Origin: Bacillota bacterium
GTDB taxonomy: Bacteria > Bacillota > Sulfobacillia > JAJZYS01 > JAJZLH01
Direction: 5' to 3'
DNA: 34,636 nucleotides
Assembly (NCBI GenBank): GCA_021803575.1
Contig: JAJZLH010000018.1
Span: forward strand, 1-34,636
Shown here: positions 7,696-34,636 of the stretch, piece by piece
How the letters are laid out: the number at the start of each line of letters is the position of its first letter
How positions within the stretch are numbered: position 1 is the stretch's first letter
The notes under the pieces: generated by a model
Databases searched by the model: none
What the model saw: only the letters and a program-made list of their open reading frames with translations
Told to the model about the DNA's origin: nothing
Position numbers and translations under genes: made by a program

Positions 7696-8115
7696 TCAAG
7701 GAACCGTCAGCCCTTCGCCGGCGGCGGCCTGGGCCAGTGCCTGGTCGAAGGTGGCGAAGCACAGTTCGGGAAGATCCTCATGTAGTGTGATGGCCAGTGC
7801 CAGATGCCAGAGGTCAGCACCGCGGAGCGGCCACCGCAGTGAGACGGATCGCACCACCGCCCGTGAGGGTGCTGCACCGAGATATGTCCACGGCCCGAAC
7901 TGAAGCGCAGACTCGGCGTCGTCGAGGATAGCGCTGGTCACCACCGTTTCCCTCCGGGCGCGGGCAAACACGGCATGCACCTCAGTCCAGGCCAGGCTGG
8001 ATATGAGGTGCGTGGCAGCACTGCGAGCCAGGGCGCGTGCCCGGTCTGTGTTCGTTTCGTTGAAAAGTGCCGCCACCAGGGCCGAAGAGTCCCAGTAGAC
8101 GACTCTAGAGTCCAC
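7696..8115 (-). CDS. vapC: VapC-like PIN-domain ribonuclease toxin
   Basis: A 139-aa PIN-domain protein starting at GTG 8115. The acidic metal-binding residues of PIN nucleases are present: Asp9 in VYWDSSALVA, Glu45 in LAWTEVHA, Asp101 in LRGADLWHLA and Asp124 in CFATFDQ. VapC toxins cleave specific RNAs, commonly initiator tRNA or 23S rRNA. The start overlaps the end of the antitoxin gene by 11 nt. The catalytic set is complete, so it should be active when freed from its antitoxin. The particular RNA target cannot be read from sequence. Confidence 0.9.
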   Translation of the reverse strand: MDSRVVYWDSSALVAALFNETNTDRARALARSAATHLISSLAWTEVHAVFARARRETVVTSAILDDAESALQFGPWTYLGAAPSRAVVRSVSLRWPLRGADLWHLALAITLHEDLPELCFATFDQALAQAAAGEGLTVP

Positions 8116-8392
8116 TATCCCGATCCTCCCGCAACCACCGCGATGCCAGACCTGGCGCTAGAGGCACGGTCGGCGGCAGTGGTCGAGGCGAGTGGTTGGG
8201 CGGTTCGAGCCAACCGCGATCCTCCAGCTCCTTCAGCCGCTGGACGAGAGGAAGGCGAGCCATCTCTGGCGGTGCCAGGGATGCGACCGGGCGACCGTGG
8301 TGGGTGATGGTCCACTGCCCGCCGCGCTGGACGTCTCTGAGAATTTCGCTGAGACGGGCTTTGGCGTCACGGATGCCTATGACTCTATCCAC
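8105..8392 (-). CDS. vapB: VapB-like antitoxin (Phd/YefM fold)
   Basis: A 95-aa antitoxin. The N-terminal VDRVIGIRDAKARLSEILR and the following WTITHHGRPVASLAP are the Phd/YefM DNA-binding fold; the proline-rich C-terminal tail is the toxin-binding region. The frame is open to a GTG at 8446, but that codon forms part of the -35 element. GTG 8392 is favoured because seven G residues (8401-8407) lie 8 nt upstream of it and downstream of the promoter. Gene order is antitoxin then toxin with an 11-nt overlap. Confidence 0.85.
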   Translation of the reverse strand: MDRVIGIRDAKARLSEILRDVQRGGQWTITHHGRPVASLAPPEMARLPLVQRLKELEDRGWLEPPNHSPRPLPPTVPLAPGLASRWLREDRDSGL

Positions 8393-8410
8393 AACTGCGA
8401 CCCCCCCAAA

Positions 8411-8425
8411 TGTAGTCAGTGTAGT
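8411..8425. repeat. Direct repeat over the vapBC -10 region
   Basis: TGTAGT occurs twice, at 8411-8416 and 8420-8425, separated by CAG, so the two copies repeat at 9-bp spacing across the -10 box and start point. This could be the binding site of the Phd-fold antitoxin. The repeat is visible; the function is inferred. Confidence 0.4.
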
Positions 8426-8446
8426 TCTAAATTGCTCGGATGTCAC
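8418..8446 (-). promoter_or_regulatory. Promoter of vapBC
   Basis: Minus-strand GTGACA (8441-8446), a 17-nt spacer and TACACT (8418-8423). Transcription would begin near 8411, giving a leader of about 19 nt that contains the poly-G ribosome-binding site of vapB. Confidence 0.6.
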
Positions 8447-8714
8447 GGGCCGAAGGCCGCGCGCGAACCCAGCCGGGCCCCGTGACCGCGGGCAGCACCT
8501 GTAGATCGCCGGTGGCCGCGCCGCCCTTGGCTGCTCACACTTGGGTCACCGGGTGCGGCCACGGGGACTGTCCTACCCGATCTAGGGAGCGAGGACTGGG
8601 CGAACGAGATCGGCGGCGCGCTCCTTAACGTGGACAGAGAGCGTGTTTGGGCAGGCCTGCGCCGGAGCGCCGAGAAGACATCCCGAAACGAGAGTCGAGA
8701 GGCGGGGTCCTCGG

Positions 8715-27272: not shown

Positions 27273-29099
27273 CTAGGGCGTGATCGTCCAGTAGTTGGGG
27301 AAGTTGAGGGCCTGGATGGTGTTGTAGTTGGAGTAGGCGCCGTGCAGGTAGGTGGCGTTCTCGAAGAAGCCGCCCAGGTTCGGCAGCTGGTCGAAGCTGC
27401 CGGTGTAGAGGTCGGGCAGGATGTAGGCGGCCCGGGCGGCGTAGGTGGTCATGCGGGCGTACTCCTGGGCTGGGGAGCCCGGGGCGTAGGTGGCGTTGAT
27501 GTCGGCGGTGAGCTGGGGGTCAGAGAAGTTGCCCAGGTTGAAGTAGGCGCCGGGGGCGAACAGGGCGCCGCCGGTCGGGTAGTAGTCCGGCTCGTAGTAC
27601 CAGCCGCTCCACCAGTTCATCACCCAGCTGGCCGCCACGGTGTTGCCGGAGGCGTCGTTGAGCGTGAGTTGGGTGTCGAAGGGCATCGGCACCGGGGTCA
27701 TCTGGATGCCCTCGGTAGCCCACTGCTGCTGCAGGTAGGTGGCGAAGTTCTGGGCCTCCGGGCTGCCGGTGGAGTAGAAGAACTTGAACTTCAGCTGAAC
27801 GGGCGTGCCGTTGATGGTCTTGGTCATGACGCCGTTCTGCAGGCTCCAGCCGTCAGAGAGGAGCAGCGCCTTGCCCTTGGCCGGGTCGAAGCTGTAGAGG
27901 GTGGGCACGGCCTTGGCGTTGAACACCGAGCTGGTGCCGACCACCGGCATCGGGCTGTACTGCGGCGAACCGTAGCCGCCGCCCATGATCTGGATGAAGG
28001 CCTTCTCGTTGATGCCCAGCTGCAGCGCCTGGCGCACCTTCAGGTCCTGGAGGGCGAGGCCCACGCCGCCAGGGGCGGCCGGTGAGAGGTTGATGGCGAT
28101 GTAGTTGATGGCGAAGGGCGGCGGCGGCACCTCGAACTTGAAGCCGGGGATGTTCTTCTCCGGCAGGTTGTAGCTGCTGATCAGGCCGGCGCTGACCGTG
28201 CCCTTCTTGAGGGCGGCGAACTCGGCGGCGGCGGTGGCGAAGTATTGGTAGGTGAGGTGCTTGATCGTGGCCATGTGGCCGTCGTAGGCCGTGTTGGGCA
28301 CGAACTCCCAGTAGTCCTGGGGCACCATCTTGTAGAACTTGTAGGGGCCGTCCACCACGTTGTAGACGGGGTTGGTGGGCTGGTTCATCACCGTGCTCAT
28401 CAGCTTCAGGACGTCAGCGGTGGCGGTTGAGACGGAGGCGCCGGCCGGCACGCCGGCCGCCTGCTCCCAGACCGTGGCCGGGAACGGGGCGAGCTGGCCC
28501 AGCCCGTTGTGCTCGAACCAGACCGGGTTGACCGGCTTGGTGGTGGTGATGACCACGGTGTCGGGACCGCTGGCGGTGACCGACTGCCAGCCGATGCCGG
28601 CGCTGTCACCGGGCTGGCCGATCGGGCCCAGGCCGCCGATGCCGCAGCCGCCGTAGGTCATGGCCGGCGGCGGCGTGGTGGTGGCGCAGGACGCCGCCTC
28701 GGTCTCAGCGTCGAAGACGACGTCAGCCGAGGTCACCGGCTGGCCGTTCGACCACTTCCACTTCGGGTTGAGCTGGATGGTGTAGGTGGTGTCGTTGTTG
28801 GAGACCGTGATCGAAGACGCCAGGGAGCGGGCGAAGTCGATCACGTTCTGCTGGTTGATGAACACCAGCGGCTTGTACATCAGGAAGTTGTTCTGGCTGT
28901 TGTTGGTGCTGTACACGCTGGTGGACAGGACGGGGGAGAAGCCGTTCAGCACCAGGCCCGGCGGCTCGGCCACCACGGCGGTGCTGGACGCAGCCAAGGG
29001 ATTGGTGGGGGCCTGGGCGGTGGTGGAGCCGCAGCCCGCCACCACGAAGGCCAGAGACGACGCCAGCATGGCGCCCAGGAACCATCGTCGCATGCGCAT
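27273..29099 (-). CDS. ABC-transporter solute-binding lipoprotein, family 5 (peptide/nickel type)
   Basis: A 608-aa extracytoplasmic binding protein of the SBP_bac_5 group, which bind oligopeptides, nickel chelates or small organic ligands. The N-terminus has MRMRRW, a hydrophobic stretch and the lipobox VVAGC with the lipidated Cys23, followed by a Thr/Ala/Pro/Asn-rich linker. Family landmarks include WKWSNGQPVTSADVVF, LKVRQALQLGINEKAFIQ, and a C-terminal tail of Asn, Tyr and Gly. I chose ATG 29099, with GGGAGGTG before it; a second ATG is two codons on. No permease or ATPase gene is adjacent, so its transporter must be encoded elsewhere. Ligand unknown. Confidence 0.9.
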   Translation of the reverse strand: MRMRRWFLGAMLASSLAFVVAGCGSTTAQAPTNPLAASSTAVVAEPPGLVLNGFSPVLSTSVYSTNNSQNNFLMYKPLVFINQQNVIDFARSLASSITVSNNDTTYTIQLNPKWKWSNGQPVTSADVVFDAETEAASCATTTPPPAMTYGGCGIGGLGPIGQPGDSAGIGWQSVTASGPDTVVITTTKPVNPVWFEHNGLGQLAPFPATVWEQAAGVPAGASVSTATADVLKLMSTVMNQPTNPVYNVVDGPYKFYKMVPQDYWEFVPNTAYDGHMATIKHLTYQYFATAAAEFAALKKGTVSAGLISSYNLPEKNIPGFKFEVPPPPFAINYIAINLSPAAPGGVGLALQDLKVRQALQLGINEKAFIQIMGGGYGSPQYSPMPVVGTSSVFNAKAVPTLYSFDPAKGKALLLSDGWSLQNGVMTKTINGTPVQLKFKFFYSTGSPEAQNFATYLQQQWATEGIQMTPVPMPFDTQLTLNDASGNTVAASWVMNWWSGWYYEPDYYPTGGALFAPGAYFNLGNFSDPQLTADINATYAPGSPAQEYARMTTYAARAAYILPDLYTGSFDQLPNLGGFFENATYLHGAYSNYNTIQALNFPNYWTITP

Positions 29100-29479
29100 C
29101 CGGAAAGCCACCTCCCAAAAGACCTGGAGACCCGGGTCACGCGAGCCCGGGGACGGTGTCCGACTCCTCCTTTCCGGATCCGACACACCCTCTGCCCGCA
29201 GGCGGGCCGAGGTGGATCGTCCGACTAGGGCCGCTGCTCGCCCTATGTGCGAGAGAGTTCTAAGAGAATGCGTTCTCGGCTCGCCAATTCCTGCAACCAG
29301 ATCGTCACAGAGAGGGAGAACTTGGCCGTGTGGCCTGGGGCCGCCCGGGCCCGGGCAAGTAACTGGGGAGAGGATTGGCCGAACCGGCGGGGAAGCTCCT
29401 CCTAAGGGCAGCGGCGCCTGGGGTGTGAGGCCGGGTAGATCGAGGCCTGGCGGTCCCCTCGCCGGAAAGGATGGTCCAG
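29100..29479. other. Divergent intergenic region, SBP gene and PPK2 gene
   Basis: About 380 bases between the two start codons. On the minus side a GAGAA/TTCTC dyad (29264-29277) lies upstream of the binding-protein gene, near a weak TTGGCG / TAGAAC promoter pair. A second AGGAGG about 70 nt before the binding-protein start has no start codon at the right distance. Nothing else is evident. Confidence 0.35.
29264..29277. promoter_or_regulatory. Operator-like dyad upstream of the SBP gene
   Basis: GAGAA and TTCTC with a 4-nt loop, flanked by further GAGTTCT/AGAGAAT repeats. It overlaps the weak minus-strand promoter candidate. A role in controlling the binding-protein gene is only an inference. 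Confidence 0.3.
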
Positions 29480-30280
29480 ATGGCCAAGGACAGCCACCTC
29501 CTCTCCCCGGTCGACGGCAAGCTGAAACTGGACAAGATCGACCCCGCCGAGACCCACGGCCTCAGCGAGGCAGGCGCCAAGGCGACCCTGGCCAAGGACG
29601 TCGAGCGCCTGTCCGAGCTGCACGACCTCCTCTACGCCAACCGCCAGCGGGCCCTCCTCATCGTGCTGCAGGGCATGGACTCGGCCGGCAAGGATGGCAC
29701 CATCCGCCACGTCATGCAGGGGCTCTCTCCCCAGGGCACGGTGGTCAGCCCCTTCAAGCAGCCGACCGCCGAGGAGCTCTCGCACGACTTCCTGTGGCGG
29801 GTGCACCAGCGGGTGCCAGCCAAGGGCGGCATCGGCATCTTCAACCGTTCGCACTACGAGGACGTGCTGGTGGTGCGGGTGCACCACCTGATCTCGGACA
29901 AGGTGGCCAAGGAGCGGCTTCGGGCCATCCGCCACTTCGAGCGGGAGCTGGACGAGTCGGGCGTGATCGTGCGCAAGTTCTTCCTGCACCTGTCCAGGCA
30001 GGAGCAGGCCAGGCGGTTCGAGGAGCGGCGCCAGGACCGGCGGAAGAACTGGAAGATGTCGGCCGCCGATTTCAAGGAGGCCGAACTGTGGGACCAGTAC
30101 CAGCAGGCCTATGAACAGGCGATCGAGGCCACCAGCACGGCCGAGTGCCCCTGGTACGTGGTGCCCTCGGACCACCGCTGGTACCGCAATCTGGCCGTGG
30201 CCAAGGTACTGGTGCACACCCTCCAGGAGCTGGAGATGGACTGGCCGAAGCCGCCAAAGGACGCTCTGGCCGCCGACTGA
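29480..30280 (+). CDS. ppk2: PPK2-family polyphosphate:nucleotide phosphotransferase
   Basis: A 266-aa PPK2 protein that transfers phosphate between inorganic polyphosphate and nucleotides. The Walker A loop is GMDSAGKDGTIRHVMQG, followed by SPQGTVVSPFKQPT, the Walker B/lid region IFNRSHYEDVLVVRV, and the C-terminal ECPWYVVPSDHRWYRNLAVAKVL that closes the active site. The ATG at 29480 is preferred over the ATG three codons earlier because AAAGG then has normal spacing. Class (AMP- or ADP-preferring) is not decided by these motifs alone. It converges with the ppx operon 41 nt away, so polyphosphate synthesis/use and hydrolysis genes lie together. Confidence 0.93.
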   Translation: MAKDSHLLSPVDGKLKLDKIDPAETHGLSEAGAKATLAKDVERLSELHDLLYANRQRALLIVLQGMDSAGKDGTIRHVMQGLSPQGTVVSPFKQPTAEELSHDFLWRVHQRVPAKGGIGIFNRSHYEDVLVVRVHHLISDKVAKERLRAIRHFERELDESGVIVRKFFLHLSRQEQARRFEERRQDRRKNWKMSAADFKEAELWDQYQQAYEQAIEATSTAECPWYVVPSDHRWYRNLAVAKVLVHTLQELEMDWPKPPKDALAAD

Positions 30281-30321
30281 GGGCTGGGACCCGCTCCGGG
30301 GCGCCCAGGGACTCCCGGCGC

Positions 30322-31833
30322 TCAGGCCGGCAGGTAGCGGCGGTGGAGCCGGCGGCCGAATACCTTGGCGAAGTGGGCGCTGAGGCGGTCCAGGTCGTCG
30401 TAGGGGATGGCCGGCGGCTCCGGCATGCCCCGGACGGTGAGGGCGATCTCCTTGGCCGACACGAGGGCGGTGAGCTCCACCTGGGCGGGCAGCGCCCGTT
30501 GGAGCAGGGCCTCGGCGTAGGCCACCAGGAGGCCGAGCCGCGCCGCCAGGGCCCCGTCGGCAGGGCCGAGCAGGCGGGCGTAAGGGCGGAGCGACTGGGC
30601 CAGACGGTGGGGGCCCTCGTAGCCGGCGGCAGCTGCCAGCACCACCTGTTCGGGGTGGCTGAGACCGAACAGGCGGGCGTGCGTGATCAGGTAGAACGTC
30701 TCGGGGTGGCGGTCGTAGAAGTTGACCCGCCGGCCCACCCCGCGGAGGTCCGCGGCGGCGAGGAGGAGGGGCCAGGCGGATTCGGGCAGGAGCGGCGCCA
30801 GCGCCCTGGCCAGGGCGCCGGTCAGGGCGGCCAGGGACGGATTCGGCCTCTCTCCGAGCTGAAACAGCAGATTCCGGACGCTGTCCGGCAGGAGCTGGCC
30901 CGGCCCCGGCCGGGCGGCGGCCGGCAGCTGCTCGAGCAAAAGGCCCTCGCGCAGCCCGGCGCCGCTGATCACGATCAGCGAGGGCTCGAGCCAGGCCGAG
31001 ACGGCCCGGGCCAGGGTCAGTGCGCTGAGCACCGTCTCGGCGCGGTGGGCGGCCAGACCGGGGAGGCGGCGGCGCTGGCGGAAGGGCAGCCTGGCCAGGC
31101 GCTGGTAGAGGGCGTCGAGGGCGGCCGGCGCCATCTGGTAGTTGTGCAGCGAGGGAAAGGGGTAGGCGCTGGCCCTCTGCTGGATCTTGGCCAGGGAGCG
31201 GAAGCTGCCGCCGATCGCCACCAGGGGGAGGCCGGGGCGGGGGTCGGGCACCAGCTTCTGCACGGCCTTGCGGGCCGCCCTCTCCGCCGCCTCGAGCTGG
31301 GCGGGCGTGGGCGGGTCGGCCTTGAAGAAGCGGCGGCCCAGGGTCACGGAGCCGAGCGGCAAGCTGATGGCGCGCTCGAGGCTGCGGTCCCTGAAGGTGC
31401 TGATCTCAGTGCTGGCACCGCCCAGGTCGATGAGGTGGCCCTCGCCCAGCTCCAGGCTGCCCAGGGCGCCCAGGAAGCCGAGGCGGGCCTCTTCCTCGCC
31501 GCCGATGATGCGAAGTGGAATGCCGGACGATCGCTCCAGCGCCCTGGCGAAGTCGGCGCCGTCTGGCGCCGTGCGGAGCGCAGCGGTGCCCACCGCCGCC
31601 ACGCCGTCCACGCCCAGCTGGCGGGCCCTGGCCGCCCAGGAGCCGAGCAGCCAGGAGGCGGCGCCAAGGAGCGGCGCCAGGGAGCCGTGCCGGGAGAGGC
31701 ACTCGCCGAGGCGGAGCAGCGCCCGCGCCTCGTCGATCACCCGCCAGCGGCCCTCCTGGTCGGCCTCGACGATCAGCATCCGCACCGAGTTTGAGCCGAG
31801 GTCGATCACGGCCTGGCGGCGGAGCTGGCTCAC
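30322..31833 (-). CDS. ppx: Ppx/GppA exopolyphosphatase with degenerate C-terminal HD domain
   Basis: A 503-aa ASKHA-fold phosphatase hydrolysing polyphosphate or pppGpp. N-terminal motifs are AVIDLGSNSVRMLIVE, EEEARLGFLGA and HLIDLGGASTEIS, the phosphate loops of Ppx/GppA; AIGGSFRSLAKIQ marks the second half of the core. The C-terminal region (about residues 310-500) is placed like the HD domain of larger Ppx proteins, but the HD pair is missing: AAADLRGVG stands where LLHDIG is expected. GTG 31833 overlaps the stop of the upstream HD gene by 4 nt (GTGA). It is the last gene of the four-gene operon and converges on PPK2. Confidence 0.88.
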   Translation of the reverse strand: MSQLRRQAVIDLGSNSVRMLIVEADQEGRWRVIDEARALLRLGECLSRHGSLAPLLGAASWLLGSWAARARQLGVDGVAAVGTAALRTAPDGADFARALERSSGIPLRIIGGEEEARLGFLGALGSLELGEGHLIDLGGASTEISTFRDRSLERAISLPLGSVTLGRRFFKADPPTPAQLEAAERAARKAVQKLVPDPRPGLPLVAIGGSFRSLAKIQQRASAYPFPSLHNYQMAPAALDALYQRLARLPFRQRRRLPGLAAHRAETVLSALTLARAVSAWLEPSLIVISGAGLREGLLLEQLPAAARPGPGQLLPDSVRNLLFQLGERPNPSLAALTGALARALAPLLPESAWPLLLAAADLRGVGRRVNFYDRHPETFYLITHARLFGLSHPEQVVLAAAAGYEGPHRLAQSLRPYARLLGPADGALAARLGLLVAYAEALLQRALPAQVELTALVSAKEIALTVRGMPEPPAIPYDDLDRLSAHFAKVFGRRLHRRYLPA

Positions 31834-32423
31834 GGCGAGGCCACCCGCCAACGCACGGGGCCGCCGGCGAGCTGGCCCAAGAGGGCCGCCTTCTTGGCCA
31901 GCGCCCGATCAAAGCGGCTGGCATCGACGCCGCCGATCACGAGCTCCAGGCCATGGAGCTTCCGCCGCACCGCCACCAGGCTGGCCGCCTGATCGTGCCT
32001 CATGTCCAGCCCATCGGCGGTGCGGAGCAGCGCACTCAGCCAGAGCAAGGTCAGGCGCCGGTCCAGGGGCCAGCTCTTCGGTGCCGGCCTGGGTCGGCGG
32101 CGGTGATTTCGGACCAGGCGGGCCAGAAGCTGGCGGTCGGCTGGGGGGTAGTCGGCGAGCAGGATGTCGTGGCGGACGATGTATGCGCTGTGGCGGTGGT
32201 GGCCGGCCGGGTTCAGCCAGAGCCCGGTGTCGTGGAGCAGGCTGGCATGGACGAGCAGTGTGCGCTCTGGCTCAGCCAGGCCGTGCAGGGGGGTGAGGGC
32301 GTCGAATAGGGCTCCGGCCAGAACGGCCACATGACGGACGTGGGCGAGGTCGCTACCGGTTTTGGCGGCGAGGTGGGCCACCTGCTCCGACTGGGCGGCC
32401 AATAGCTCCTGGCGCCCCGTCAT
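31830..32423 (-). CDS. HD-domain protein resembling the Ppx C-terminal domain
   Basis: A 197-aa stand-alone HD-domain protein. HVRHVAVLAGALFDALTPLHG, the metal-binding LLHDTG (near residue 64), GHHRHSAYIV and LLRTADGLD reproduce, in order, the domain III signature of Ppx/GppA proteins, with every metal ligand present. Its ATG overlaps the preceding kinase-like gene as ATGA, and its TGA overlaps the GTG of ppx. The intact HD site here alongside the degenerate one in ppx suggests that the function was moved into a separate subunit. Phosphohydrolase activity is plausible; substrate unknown. Confidence 0.82.
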   Translation of the reverse strand: MTGRQELLAAQSEQVAHLAAKTGSDLAHVRHVAVLAGALFDALTPLHGLAEPERTLLVHASLLHDTGLWLNPAGHHRHSAYIVRHDILLADYPPADRQLLARLVRNHRRRPRPAPKSWPLDRRLTLLWLSALLRTADGLDMRHDQAASLVAVRRKLHGLELVIGGVDASRFDRALAKKAALLGQLAGGPVRWRVASP

Positions 32424-33085
32424 CCGGCCACCGGTGCCAGCGGGGCCGGCTGGCCGGGCAGGAGGCCGGCGAGGGCGCGGTGGATCTCCCGCTCGGCGGC
32501 CTCGGCCCGACCGGCCGTGCCGATCCGGTGGTGCGGCCAGGCGGCCACCTCCTGCTCATAGCATCGAGCCAGGCGGCGCTGGTAGCGCAGGGCCTGCGCC
32601 AGGAGCTGATCTGCGGGGGCCGCCGGCCAGCCGGTCTCCCGGGGCTGCAGGAAGCGGCGGTGGCCGAAGAGCCGCTCCAGACGGCGGCGGGCCGGGGCGT
32701 GCAGCAACAGCGTGAGGTCGGGCGGCGGCAGGAAGGAGAGGACGCCCAGCGCCCAGTCGCGGTCGATGCCGCGCACCATGGCCCGCACCAGCGGCGTCAG
32801 GAGGTAGCGGTCACAGAGCACGACCTGGCCGAGCTCCAGGGCGGGCGCGATCTGGTGGCGGAAGAGGTCAGCCAGGTCGGCGGCATAGAGCAGGAACAGG
32901 GTCCGGTCCGAGAGGTCGGCCCGGCCCTGCAGCACCTGCAGCGGCCGCCGCATCAGGTCTGACCCCTTGATCCGGCAGGGCACCACCACCAGGCCCTGGG
33001 CACTGAGCCAGGTCTGCACCCGGCCGGCGAGCTCGGTGCAGCCGGCGCCGTCCGCCCCTTCCAGTGCCACCAGCGTGCCCTTCAC
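32420..33085 (-). CDS. Thymidylate-kinase-like protein with a defective P-loop
   Basis: A 221-aa protein with the thymidylate kinase fold but a non-canonical Walker A: EGADGAGCTELAGR has Cys16 (codon 33038-33040) where the family has the phosphate-binding Lys. The change from a Lys codon to TGC needs three base changes, so it is not a simple read error. Other parts look retained: the VLCDRYLLTPLVRAM segment (DRY motif) and the basic lid RRRLERLFGHRRFLQPRETGW. ATP phosphotransfer is expected to be lost or strongly changed. A regulatory or structural role as a partner of the adjacent intact kinase is possible. Its GTG overlaps the preceding gene by 4 nt. Confidence 0.82.
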   Translation of the reverse strand: MKGTLVALEGADGAGCTELAGRVQTWLSAQGLVVVPCRIKGSDLMRRPLQVLQGRADLSDRTLFLLYAADLADLFRHQIAPALELGQVVLCDRYLLTPLVRAMVRGIDRDWALGVLSFLPPPDLTLLLHAPARRRLERLFGHRRFLQPRETGWPAAPADQLLAQALRYQRRLARCYEQEVAAWPHHRIGTAGRAEAAEREIHRALAGLLPGQPAPLAPVAG

Positions 33086-33771
33086 GACCGGCCTCCGGCC
33101 GCCGCGCTCTGGGCGGCCTGGAGCAGGTGCAGGGTCTGTTTGCGGATCTGGAGCTGCTGGCTCCTCAAGCTGGCGGTGCCGTCTACCAGCTGGTAGCCCA
33201 GGCGGTCAGCGAAGCCCAGGTAGTGCTCCAGGACCGCCCCCTGGAAGGCGAGGAAGCTGGTCAGGGGGTCGGCGCTGATCGCCAGGTCCATGCCGGCCTC
33301 GTAGTAGCCGAAGTGGTTGCGCCCCGCCAGGGCCCGCGCCGCAGCCACCGCCGGCGGCAGGTGGAAGAGGAAGGTGAGATCGGCCGGCCGGGCGTAGGCG
33401 TAGAGCGTCTCGGTCCAGGCCGGGTTCAGGCCGCGGGCGCCGTCTCGGGCGAGGGCGGTACCGACGTAGCGGTCACAGAGCACGATCTGGCCGAGCTGGA
33501 GCCGGGGCAGGATCTCCCGCTCGTAGCGGTCGGCGAAGTCAGCGGCGTTGAATAGGGCATAGGAAAGACCGAACAGGCGCTTGGTGCGCTTGCCGCTCTG
33601 GCTGATCGGATGGACGGCCGGACTGGAGTTCCAGGAGCTGAGGTGGACGGGCAGACCGAGCCGGCCGAGGTGGCGGTAGAGCAACCGGAGCTGCGTGCTC
33701 TTGCCGGAGCCGTCGCAGCCCTCGACCGCGATCAGGCAGCCGCCGGGAAACCGAGATTTCTGCTCCGGCAC
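33082..33771 (-). CDS. Thymidylate-kinase-like protein, intact P-loop
   Basis: A 229-aa nucleoside-monophosphate-kinase fold. Walker A is EGCDGSGKSTQLRLL with Lys24; the FADRYEREILP and VLCDRYVGTALARDGARG segments carry the DR(Y) substrate-binding motif of thymidylate kinases. The C-terminal half diverges from housekeeping Tmk, so dTMP may not be the substrate. The GTG at 33771 has GGAGG about 10 nt upstream. It is the first gene of the operon with the P-loop-less paralogue, the HD protein and Ppx. With PPK2 facing the operon, a link to polyphosphate or nucleotide balance is an inference from position. Confidence 0.85.
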   Translation of the reverse strand: MPEQKSRFPGGCLIAVEGCDGSGKSTQLRLLYRHLGRLGLPVHLSSWNSSPAVHPISQSGKRTKRLFGLSYALFNAADFADRYEREILPRLQLGQIVLCDRYVGTALARDGARGLNPAWTETLYAYARPADLTFLFHLPPAVAAARALAGRNHFGYYEAGMDLAISADPLTSFLAFQGAVLEHYLGFADRLGYQLVDGTASLRSQQLQIRKQTLHLLQAAQSAAAGGRS

Positions 33772-33835: not shown

Positions 33836-34636
33836 CTAGCGGAACGGCGCCACCGCCACCGCCTTGGGCCACCAGCGGCGGATGACGGCCCGCTCCGCCG
33901 GCCGGCCCAGCTGCCAGAGCATCGGCCAGATGCACTGCCGGCAGGCCGCCACCCGGGCCGGGTCCTCGGAGCCGAGGCCGCGGTGGGCGAGCAGAGCCTG
34001 GTAGACGGTGGCCGCCTCTGAGGCCGGCAGGCGGGATACGGCCCAGCGCCCGCCATCCTCCTTGGCTAGAAGATTCCCGTCGGTGAGAAACGACCAGGCG
34101 CGGCAGAGGTTCAGGACCTCGTATCCCTCGTGCGGCGGCTCGTCTGCGGCCCAGGCCAGATCGGCCATCACCGCGTCCAAGAAGTGGAGCCGCGGCACCA
34201 TGGGCACGGTGGCGGCCGCCGGCCGGCCGGACAGCGTCACGCCCCCCTGGCGCAGCATGGTGAGGTGCGCGGCCAGGTCGCGGTCGCGGGCGCCACCGTC
34301 CCTGTCCGCACCGGGAGCCGGAGTGCCGCCTTCGATGCGGAGGCGCCAGGCCTCGCTGTAGTGGAAGCGGTATGGCGCCGGATGCTGCCATGGCACCAGA
34401 TCCCGCTGGGTCAGGACATGCAGCTCCAGGTCGGTCGGACGGCCGGAGAGCTGGAGGCAGAGTTCGGAGAGCACCGGGCGGTCGGGCGCCTGCCAGGCAG
34501 ACAGCACCGCCACCAGGTCGAGATCGCTGGCCGCGGCCTGCCAGCCGCCCGTGGCCGCTGATCCATGCAGGTAGAGGCCGAGCAGGCGCTGGCCGAAGTG
34601 GGCCTGGCAGGCGGTGGTCAGCCGCCGGAGCTGGCG
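33836..34636 (-). CDS. AadA-like aminoglycoside adenylyltransferase family protein (5' end outside window)
   Basis: The frame is open from the last base of the window and holds 266 codons. The nucleotidyltransferase motif LYLHGSAATGG followed by SDLDLVAVL matches the GS...DxD site of AadA-type adenylyltransferases. The central YRFHYSEAWRL and the C-terminal EVLNLCRAWSFLTDGNLLAKEDGGRWAVSRLP are the usual DUF4111 block of streptomycin/spectinomycin adenylyltransferases and relatives. Only a small N-terminal piece is missing. Many chromosomal members of this family have no proven resistance role, so the substrate should not be assumed. It lies 64 nt upstream of the kinase operon on the same strand. 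Confidence 0.83.
   Translation of the reverse strand, partial: RQLRRLTTACQAHFGQRLLGLYLHGSAATGGWQAAASDLDLVAVLSAWQAPDRPVLSELCLQLSGRPTDLELHVLTQRDLVPWQHPAPYRFHYSEAWRLRIEGGTPAPGADRDGGARDRDLAAHLTMLRQGGVTLSGRPAAATVPMVPRLHFLDAVMADLAWAADEPPHEGYEVLNLCRAWSFLTDGNLLAKEDGGRWAVSRLPASEAATVYQALLAHRGLGSEDPARVAACRQCIWPMLWQLGRPAERAVIRRWWPKAVAVAPFR

Follow-up and report, generated by a model that had tools for sequence, protein, structure and literature searches.

The stretch of DNA analysed here, called the window below, is the 34,636-nucleotide sequence of contig JAJZLH010000018.1 from a Bacillota bacterium (assembly GCA_021803575.1). Its minus strand carries four consecutive genes, which encode a thymidylate-kinase-like protein (K1), a paralogous kinase-like protein (K2), a stand-alone homologue of Ppx/GppA domain III (HD) and a Ppx/GppA exopolyphosphatase (PPX). 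On balance, these genes probably constitute a polyphosphate module of Bacillota that possess no PPK1, with K1, probably together with K2, serving as a polyphosphate kinase. The genes are joined by three 4-nt overlaps, between the K1 stop and the K2 start (33082-33085), the K2 stop and the HD start (32420-32423), and the HD stop and the GTG start of PPX (31830-31833). A PPK2-family polyphosphate kinase gene (29471-30280, plus strand, 269 amino acids) is convergent with this operon, and 41 nt (30281-30321) lie between it and the end of PPX. The overlaps and this distance are as the first-pass annotation had given them. The host genome is 1.52 Mb in size and 97% complete, and one further thymidylate kinase is encoded elsewhere in it.

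Related loci were collected by searching 101 genomes with K2, the phylum with K1 and three classes with the K1 profile, and 39 loci from Bacillota genomes were annotated with profiles built in this analysis. At all 39, K1 and K2 are adjacent, in the same order and on the same strand. HD follows K2 directly at 36 of the 39 loci and PPX lies alongside in nearly all. Two modules, L138 and L140, are confirmed to be devoid of an HD gene, and the contig of L150 ends before HD could be judged. Two gene orders, K1-K2-HD-PPX and PPX-K1-K2-HD, are encountered across the class of the window and two further classes. Most loci of the window's class have PPX downstream; it is upstream in the two other classes and, within the window's class, in one family (f10, genus g47). 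The gene order on which the first-pass annotation had built its proposal therefore recurs in relatives, at 39 loci of three classes. The 4-nt overlaps are found at 18 of 39 K1-K2 junctions, 10 of 36 K2-HD junctions and 13 of 18 HD-PPX junctions; at most of the remaining junctions the genes are separated by a short gap or overlap briefly. Translation coupling is thus a common but not a strict feature of these loci; the tight joining noted earlier is exact at this locus and only partly shared by the others. The recurrence of the order, together with the asymmetries within the two protein pairs described below, is more than chance; taken by themselves, the 4-nt overlaps are less remarkable.

The first three genes also behave as a unit. 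In the genus of G298, the genomes G527, G529 and G531 share with G298 the gene order VanW-like gene, PPX, xth (identities of 53-54%, 75-79% and 66-74%, respectively), with no K1-K2-HD between PPX and xth. Since the order of the flanking genes is kept without them, K1-K2-HD was acquired or lost in one piece in this genus. PPX and the module also go together in the genus of G392: PPX is present in three genomes that carry the module and absent from the six module-less genomes that were checked. An EAL-CBS-GGDEF protein is encoded between PhoU and the module PPX in G392 (L080:10330-12117), and PhoU is followed by an ABC (ATP-binding cassette) ATPase, PstB-like by eye; the position of the EAL-CBS-GGDEF gene suggests a possible tie between cyclic-di-GMP and the control of phosphate. 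A lone K1/K2-like gene in G517 (L151:5529-6158) scores about 103 bits against both profiles, has stop codons in the wider match and no PPX or HD nearby, and is a probable relic of the module.

K1 (33082-33771, minus strand, 229 amino acids, GTG start) belongs to PF02223 (61.9 bits) and contains the P-loop GCDGSGKST with K24, the P-loop lysine that is kept in 39 of 39 K1 proteins. Against TIGR00041, the equivalog model for deoxythymidine monophosphate (dTMP) kinase with a curated cut-off of 83.25 bits, it reaches 54.1 bits and so falls under the cut-off. Among proteins of solved structure, its best relative is ST1543 of Sulfolobus tokodaii, deposited as a "probable thymidylate kinase" (2plr, 4nzy, 4rzx, 5h70); the K1 profile (A1) matches 2plr over its full length with 272 bits and the next thymidylate kinase with 87 bits, and K1 and ST1543 form a clade with support of 98/87. 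K1 possesses the ST1543-type motifs WNSS, ARDGARG and YYEAGMDL, and shares WNSS, RDxxRG and EAGxD with ST1543, although the one protein is bacterial and the other archaeal. Compared with thymidylate kinases of the same lineage, the motifs in contact with dTMP are replaced in both, REPGG/KEPT by WNSS, FxADR by H/N..DF ([HN]AxDF) and AYQ by ARD. Because its dTMP-binding motifs are replaced, K1 is, on the reading of its sequence, not an ordinary dTMP kinase. Of the four ST1543 entries one is a structure with bound adenosine diphosphate (ADP), and no title names bound dTMP. A search of plasmids returned a single match, a Streptomyces tmk.

K2 (32420-33085, minus strand, 221 amino acids, GTG start) is likewise a member of PF02223 (58.7 bits) and is under the TIGR00041 cut-off with 62.1 bits. 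Its P-loop reads GADGAGCTE with C16 in the place of the lysine. These residues in K1 and K2 agree with the first-pass annotation, which had called K2 P-loop-less; the loop is in fact present, with the lysine alone replaced. The contrast between the two kinases is universal in the sample, as no K2 among 39 retains the lysine, 34 having Arg, 3 (those of the window's genus) Cys and 2 Gly. The dTMP-binding motifs of K2 also deviate from the dTMP-kinase pattern, its DR motif is mostly kept, and its motif positions are less conserved than those of K1. An AlphaFold model of K2 (mean predicted local distance difference test, pLDDT, 81.5) has ST1543 as its nearest fold, with a template modelling (TM) score of 0.84, and is thus assigned to the thymidylate-kinase fold. 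Its ratio of non-synonymous to synonymous substitution rates (dN/dS), 0.17-0.37, indicates purifying selection; with the loss of the lysine in all orthologues, this rules out K2 as a case of recent decay. A K2 clade separate from the dTMP kinases was neither rejected nor shown (p of the approximately unbiased test, p-AU, 0.156). The P-loops of two K2 proteins on long branches are far decayed, GGPGSGGAE in L046:2530-3201 and GCPGAGGAA in L051:7769-8371, and the latter protein has no DR motif either.

The loss of the P-loop lysine is not confined to K2. The other thymidylate kinase of the host genome is over the TIGR00041 cut-off (140.3 bits) with a P-loop that has no lysine. This P-loop, GIDGSG[LIV][ST]T with Leu, Ile or Val where the lysine is expected, and an accompanying KEP[ST] motif recur in the dTMP kinases of many relatives. 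One of these, L001:1459-2526 (contig C5 of G000, 7927-8472), was tested and is over the TIGR00041 cut-off; further examples are found in L021, L024, L026, L027, L061-L064 and L067-L071. In genomes of the class without K1, the lysine-less dTMP kinase is apparently the sole such enzyme (single matches in the K2 search), and these proteins are possibly active thymidylate kinases that dispense with the Walker A lysine. As they appear functional, the missing lysine is insufficient to call K2 dead and was dropped as proof of it.

K2 may therefore still be catalytically active. It could be a working kinase in which arginine, or no residue at all, stands in for the lysine, with K1 and K2 differing in specificity, in line with the lysine-less lineage enzymes and with the retention of Arg in 34 of 39 K2 proteins and, mostly, of the DR motif. 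We hold this to be rather doubtful: the residue varies among R, C and G, the motif positions are less constrained than in K1, and decay has proceeded further in L046 and L051. The variability and this further decay lead us to lean, tentatively, towards a non-catalytic role for K2. An active K2 would in any case bear on K2 only and is compatible with K1 being the polyphosphate kinase.

The second pair consists of HD and PPX. HD (31830-32423, minus strand, 197 amino acids, ATG start) has its best match in PF21447, Ppx-GppA domain III (62.4 bits against a gathering cut-off of 27.3), and aligns with domain III of the PPX structure 8jgo with 75 bits. Its motif residues are H28, H64-D65, H75, H78, H107 and D137, and the motif is intact in 36 of 36 HD proteins. 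PPX (30322-31833, minus strand, 503 amino acids, GTG start, with an in-frame TTG at 31851) matches PF02541 (163.8 bits) and TIGR03706 (241 bits), as well as the GppA model (101.8 bits). The catalytic motifs DxGSN, the catalytic Glu region and DxGGxSxE are present and domains I-II are intact. It aligns through domains I-III with Escherichia coli PPX 1u6z and with 8jgo, which we take to be a Deinococcus enzyme. Those two proteins carry an HD-type domain III, whereas in the window's class the HD histidine of PPX is lost and the function resides, it seems, in a separate gene. The domain III of the window's PPX is degenerate, with LRG in the place of the HD motif; the first-pass annotation had HD missing from PPX, but the domain itself is still there in decayed form. 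The histidine is lost in all 25 PPX proteins of the window's class that cover the site. Outside that class, 7 of 8 PPX proteins retain the HD pair, including those of L138 and L140, where there is no HD gene, so the intact and damaged HD pair claimed earlier holds for the class and is not general. Every PPX with a lost motif is accompanied by a separate HD gene, one case being uncertain at a contig end. An intact domain III motif is not required of all Ppx/GppA proteins, short PPX proteins being without domain III. The asymmetry appears to be a class-level change in which the HD function has moved to a separate protein.

Co-occurrence was counted in two samples, one of 154 genomes from the window's class and one of 80 from two other classes. 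In the window's class K1 is present in 29 genomes and PPX in 29, with both in 28; the mismatches are contig ends, PPX being cut in G013 and the contig of G616 ending just after K2-HD-PPX. The 29 do not include G015 and G016, whose weak K1 matches resemble ordinary thymidylate kinases. PPK2, whose representative in the window matches PF03976 (249.6 bits) and TIGR03709 (357.6 bits, cut-off 247.2), is found in 22 of the 154 genomes, 20 of them with K1 and one being G616. Fisher tests gave 2e-28 for K1 with PPX and 3e-16 for K1 with PPK2, values that ignore relatedness and are descriptive. The closeness of PPK2 to the operon stressed in the first-pass annotation thus survives as genome-wide co-occurrence; physically PPK2 is near only in the window's order, and is distant or absent elsewhere. 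PPK1 was found in none of the 154 genomes and in none of the 80, and the single PPK2 carrier of the other two classes is a genome with the module. Neither PPK1 nor PPK2 is encoded in several near-complete module genomes, G030, G581 and G591 among them, so the substrate of their PPX should have another source.

From the gene order, the conservation of motifs, the co-occurrence and the gain or loss of the block, all of them direct observations, we infer the following activities and complexes. K1 would make polyphosphate from adenosine triphosphate (ATP), and reversibly use it; the family-3 polyphosphate kinase of Crenarchaeota would be its archaeal equivalent. K2 would be the fixed and obligate paralogous partner of K1 in a K1:K2 heterodimer, with a structural, regulatory or polyphosphate-binding part. 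Thymidylate kinases are normally dimers, which makes such a heterodimer natural. PPX would break polyphosphate down, and HD would act with it as the detached, intact domain III that replaces the decayed HD site of PPX in the window's class. PPK2, where present, would spend polyphosphate to recharge nucleoside diphosphates. More tentatively, and short of an even chance in our estimate, K1:K2 might be a heterodimeric polyphosphate kinase in which a catalytic subunit is paired with a pseudo-subunit. On this view these PPK1-less Bacillota would have no other route of polyphosphate synthesis, and HD would supply domain III in trans, uniting synthesis and degradation in one regulated complex.

The first-pass annotation had suggested instead that the operon links the turnover of polyphosphate with the phosphorylation of nucleotides, K1 (with K2) being a nucleoside or deoxynucleoside monophosphate kinase. 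Membership of PF02223, the deposition of ST1543 as a dTMP kinase with ADP bound, and the position of PPK2 close to the operon in the window's order all agree with this idea. We nevertheless regard it as unlikely, and as less likely than a polyphosphate-kinase role. The dTMP-contact motifs are replaced in both kinases; both score under the TIGR00041 cut-off, against 140 bits for the genome's other thymidylate kinase; and the distribution of K1 tracks PPX and PPK2, not a general need for nucleotides, a phyletic pattern that points to polyphosphate synthesis. Still less probable is an alarmone module, in which PPX would be a GppA-type phosphatase of guanosine pentaphosphate (pppGpp), HD a hydrolase of (p)ppGpp or nucleotides, and the two kinases would form a regulator that binds nucleotides. 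Sequence cannot separate Ppx from GppA here, as the score against the GppA model illustrates, and many relatives have PPX without any polyphosphate kinase; PPK2, however, is almost confined to module genomes, and the locus adjoins a PhoU gene in the genus of G392. An ordinary neighbourhood without joint function would agree with the frequency of 4-nt overlaps in compact genomes, but can be set aside as very improbable, since the same gene set recurs in about 40 genomes belonging to three classes, PPX has been reordered and K1-K2 never, and K1-K2-HD comes or goes as a block.

The closest parallel is archaeal. Sulfolobales have no PPK1 (PMC6355812) and possess a conserved SixA-PPX-dTMP kinase-CHAD cluster (PMC10892726), which resembles the bacterial PPX-K1 arrangement. 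A "distinct family" or "family 3" of polyphosphate kinase is reported for Crenarchaeota (Hofmann et al., as cited in PMC13318637 and PMC11677633). This crenarchaeal family is a precedent for the kinase proposed here. The bacterial operon differs from the crenarchaeal case in its K1/K2 pair and separate HD protein, parts of which no description was found in the literature searched. Beyond PMC10892726, that literature also yielded nothing on an operon of thymidylate kinase, PPX and HD. K1 and K2 have no match to PF03976 and are a family separate from the PPK2 encoded beside them. The P-loop kinase fold class of PPK2 is related to thymidylate kinase. Tandem paralogous nucleotide kinases that form a heterodimer, as proposed for K1:K2, are known in the deoxyadenosine/deoxyguanosine kinase of Lactobacillus acidophilus, which differs in that both subunits are active and belong to another kinase family.

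Several points weigh against assigning polyphosphate synthesis to K1. We know of no activity for any bacterial K1 or K2, and ST1543, with its ADP-bound structure, stands in the database as a dTMP kinase. The likely kinship of K1 with the crenarchaeal family-3 enzyme presumes that the latter is the thymidylate-kinase-like protein of the ppx cluster. The co-occurrence counts take no account of relatedness, and the absent lysine of K2 is no proof of inactivity, the local dTMP kinases sharing this loss. In the other two classes there are many genomes whose short PPX is accompanied by none of K1/K2, PPK1 and PPK2; PPX alone is thus no demand for a polyphosphate synthase, and the PPX of module-less genomes may act as GppA.

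Two neighbours of the operon complete the locus. An AadA-like nucleotidyltransferase gene (33836-34636), with a PF13427 C-terminal domain and a weak NTP_transf_2 match, is open at the end of the window, and such a gene lies directly upstream of K1 also in two genomes of the same genus (L034 and L035). A family 5 extracellular solute-binding protein (PF00496) is encoded at 27273-29186, and its neighbourhood with PPK2 is kept in L034.

Many bacteria use or destroy polyphosphate without a known enzyme to synthesise it, and for Bacillota this operon offers a specific candidate, in which the proposed kinase bears the annotation "thymidylate kinase" and is paired with a lysine-less paralogue. If the proposal is true, the crenarchaeal polyphosphate kinase family would reach into bacteria, and a number of "dTMP kinase" annotations would need correction. 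The module would also be a case of a conserved pair of kinase and altered kinase, joined to a domain that has turned into a separate subunit.

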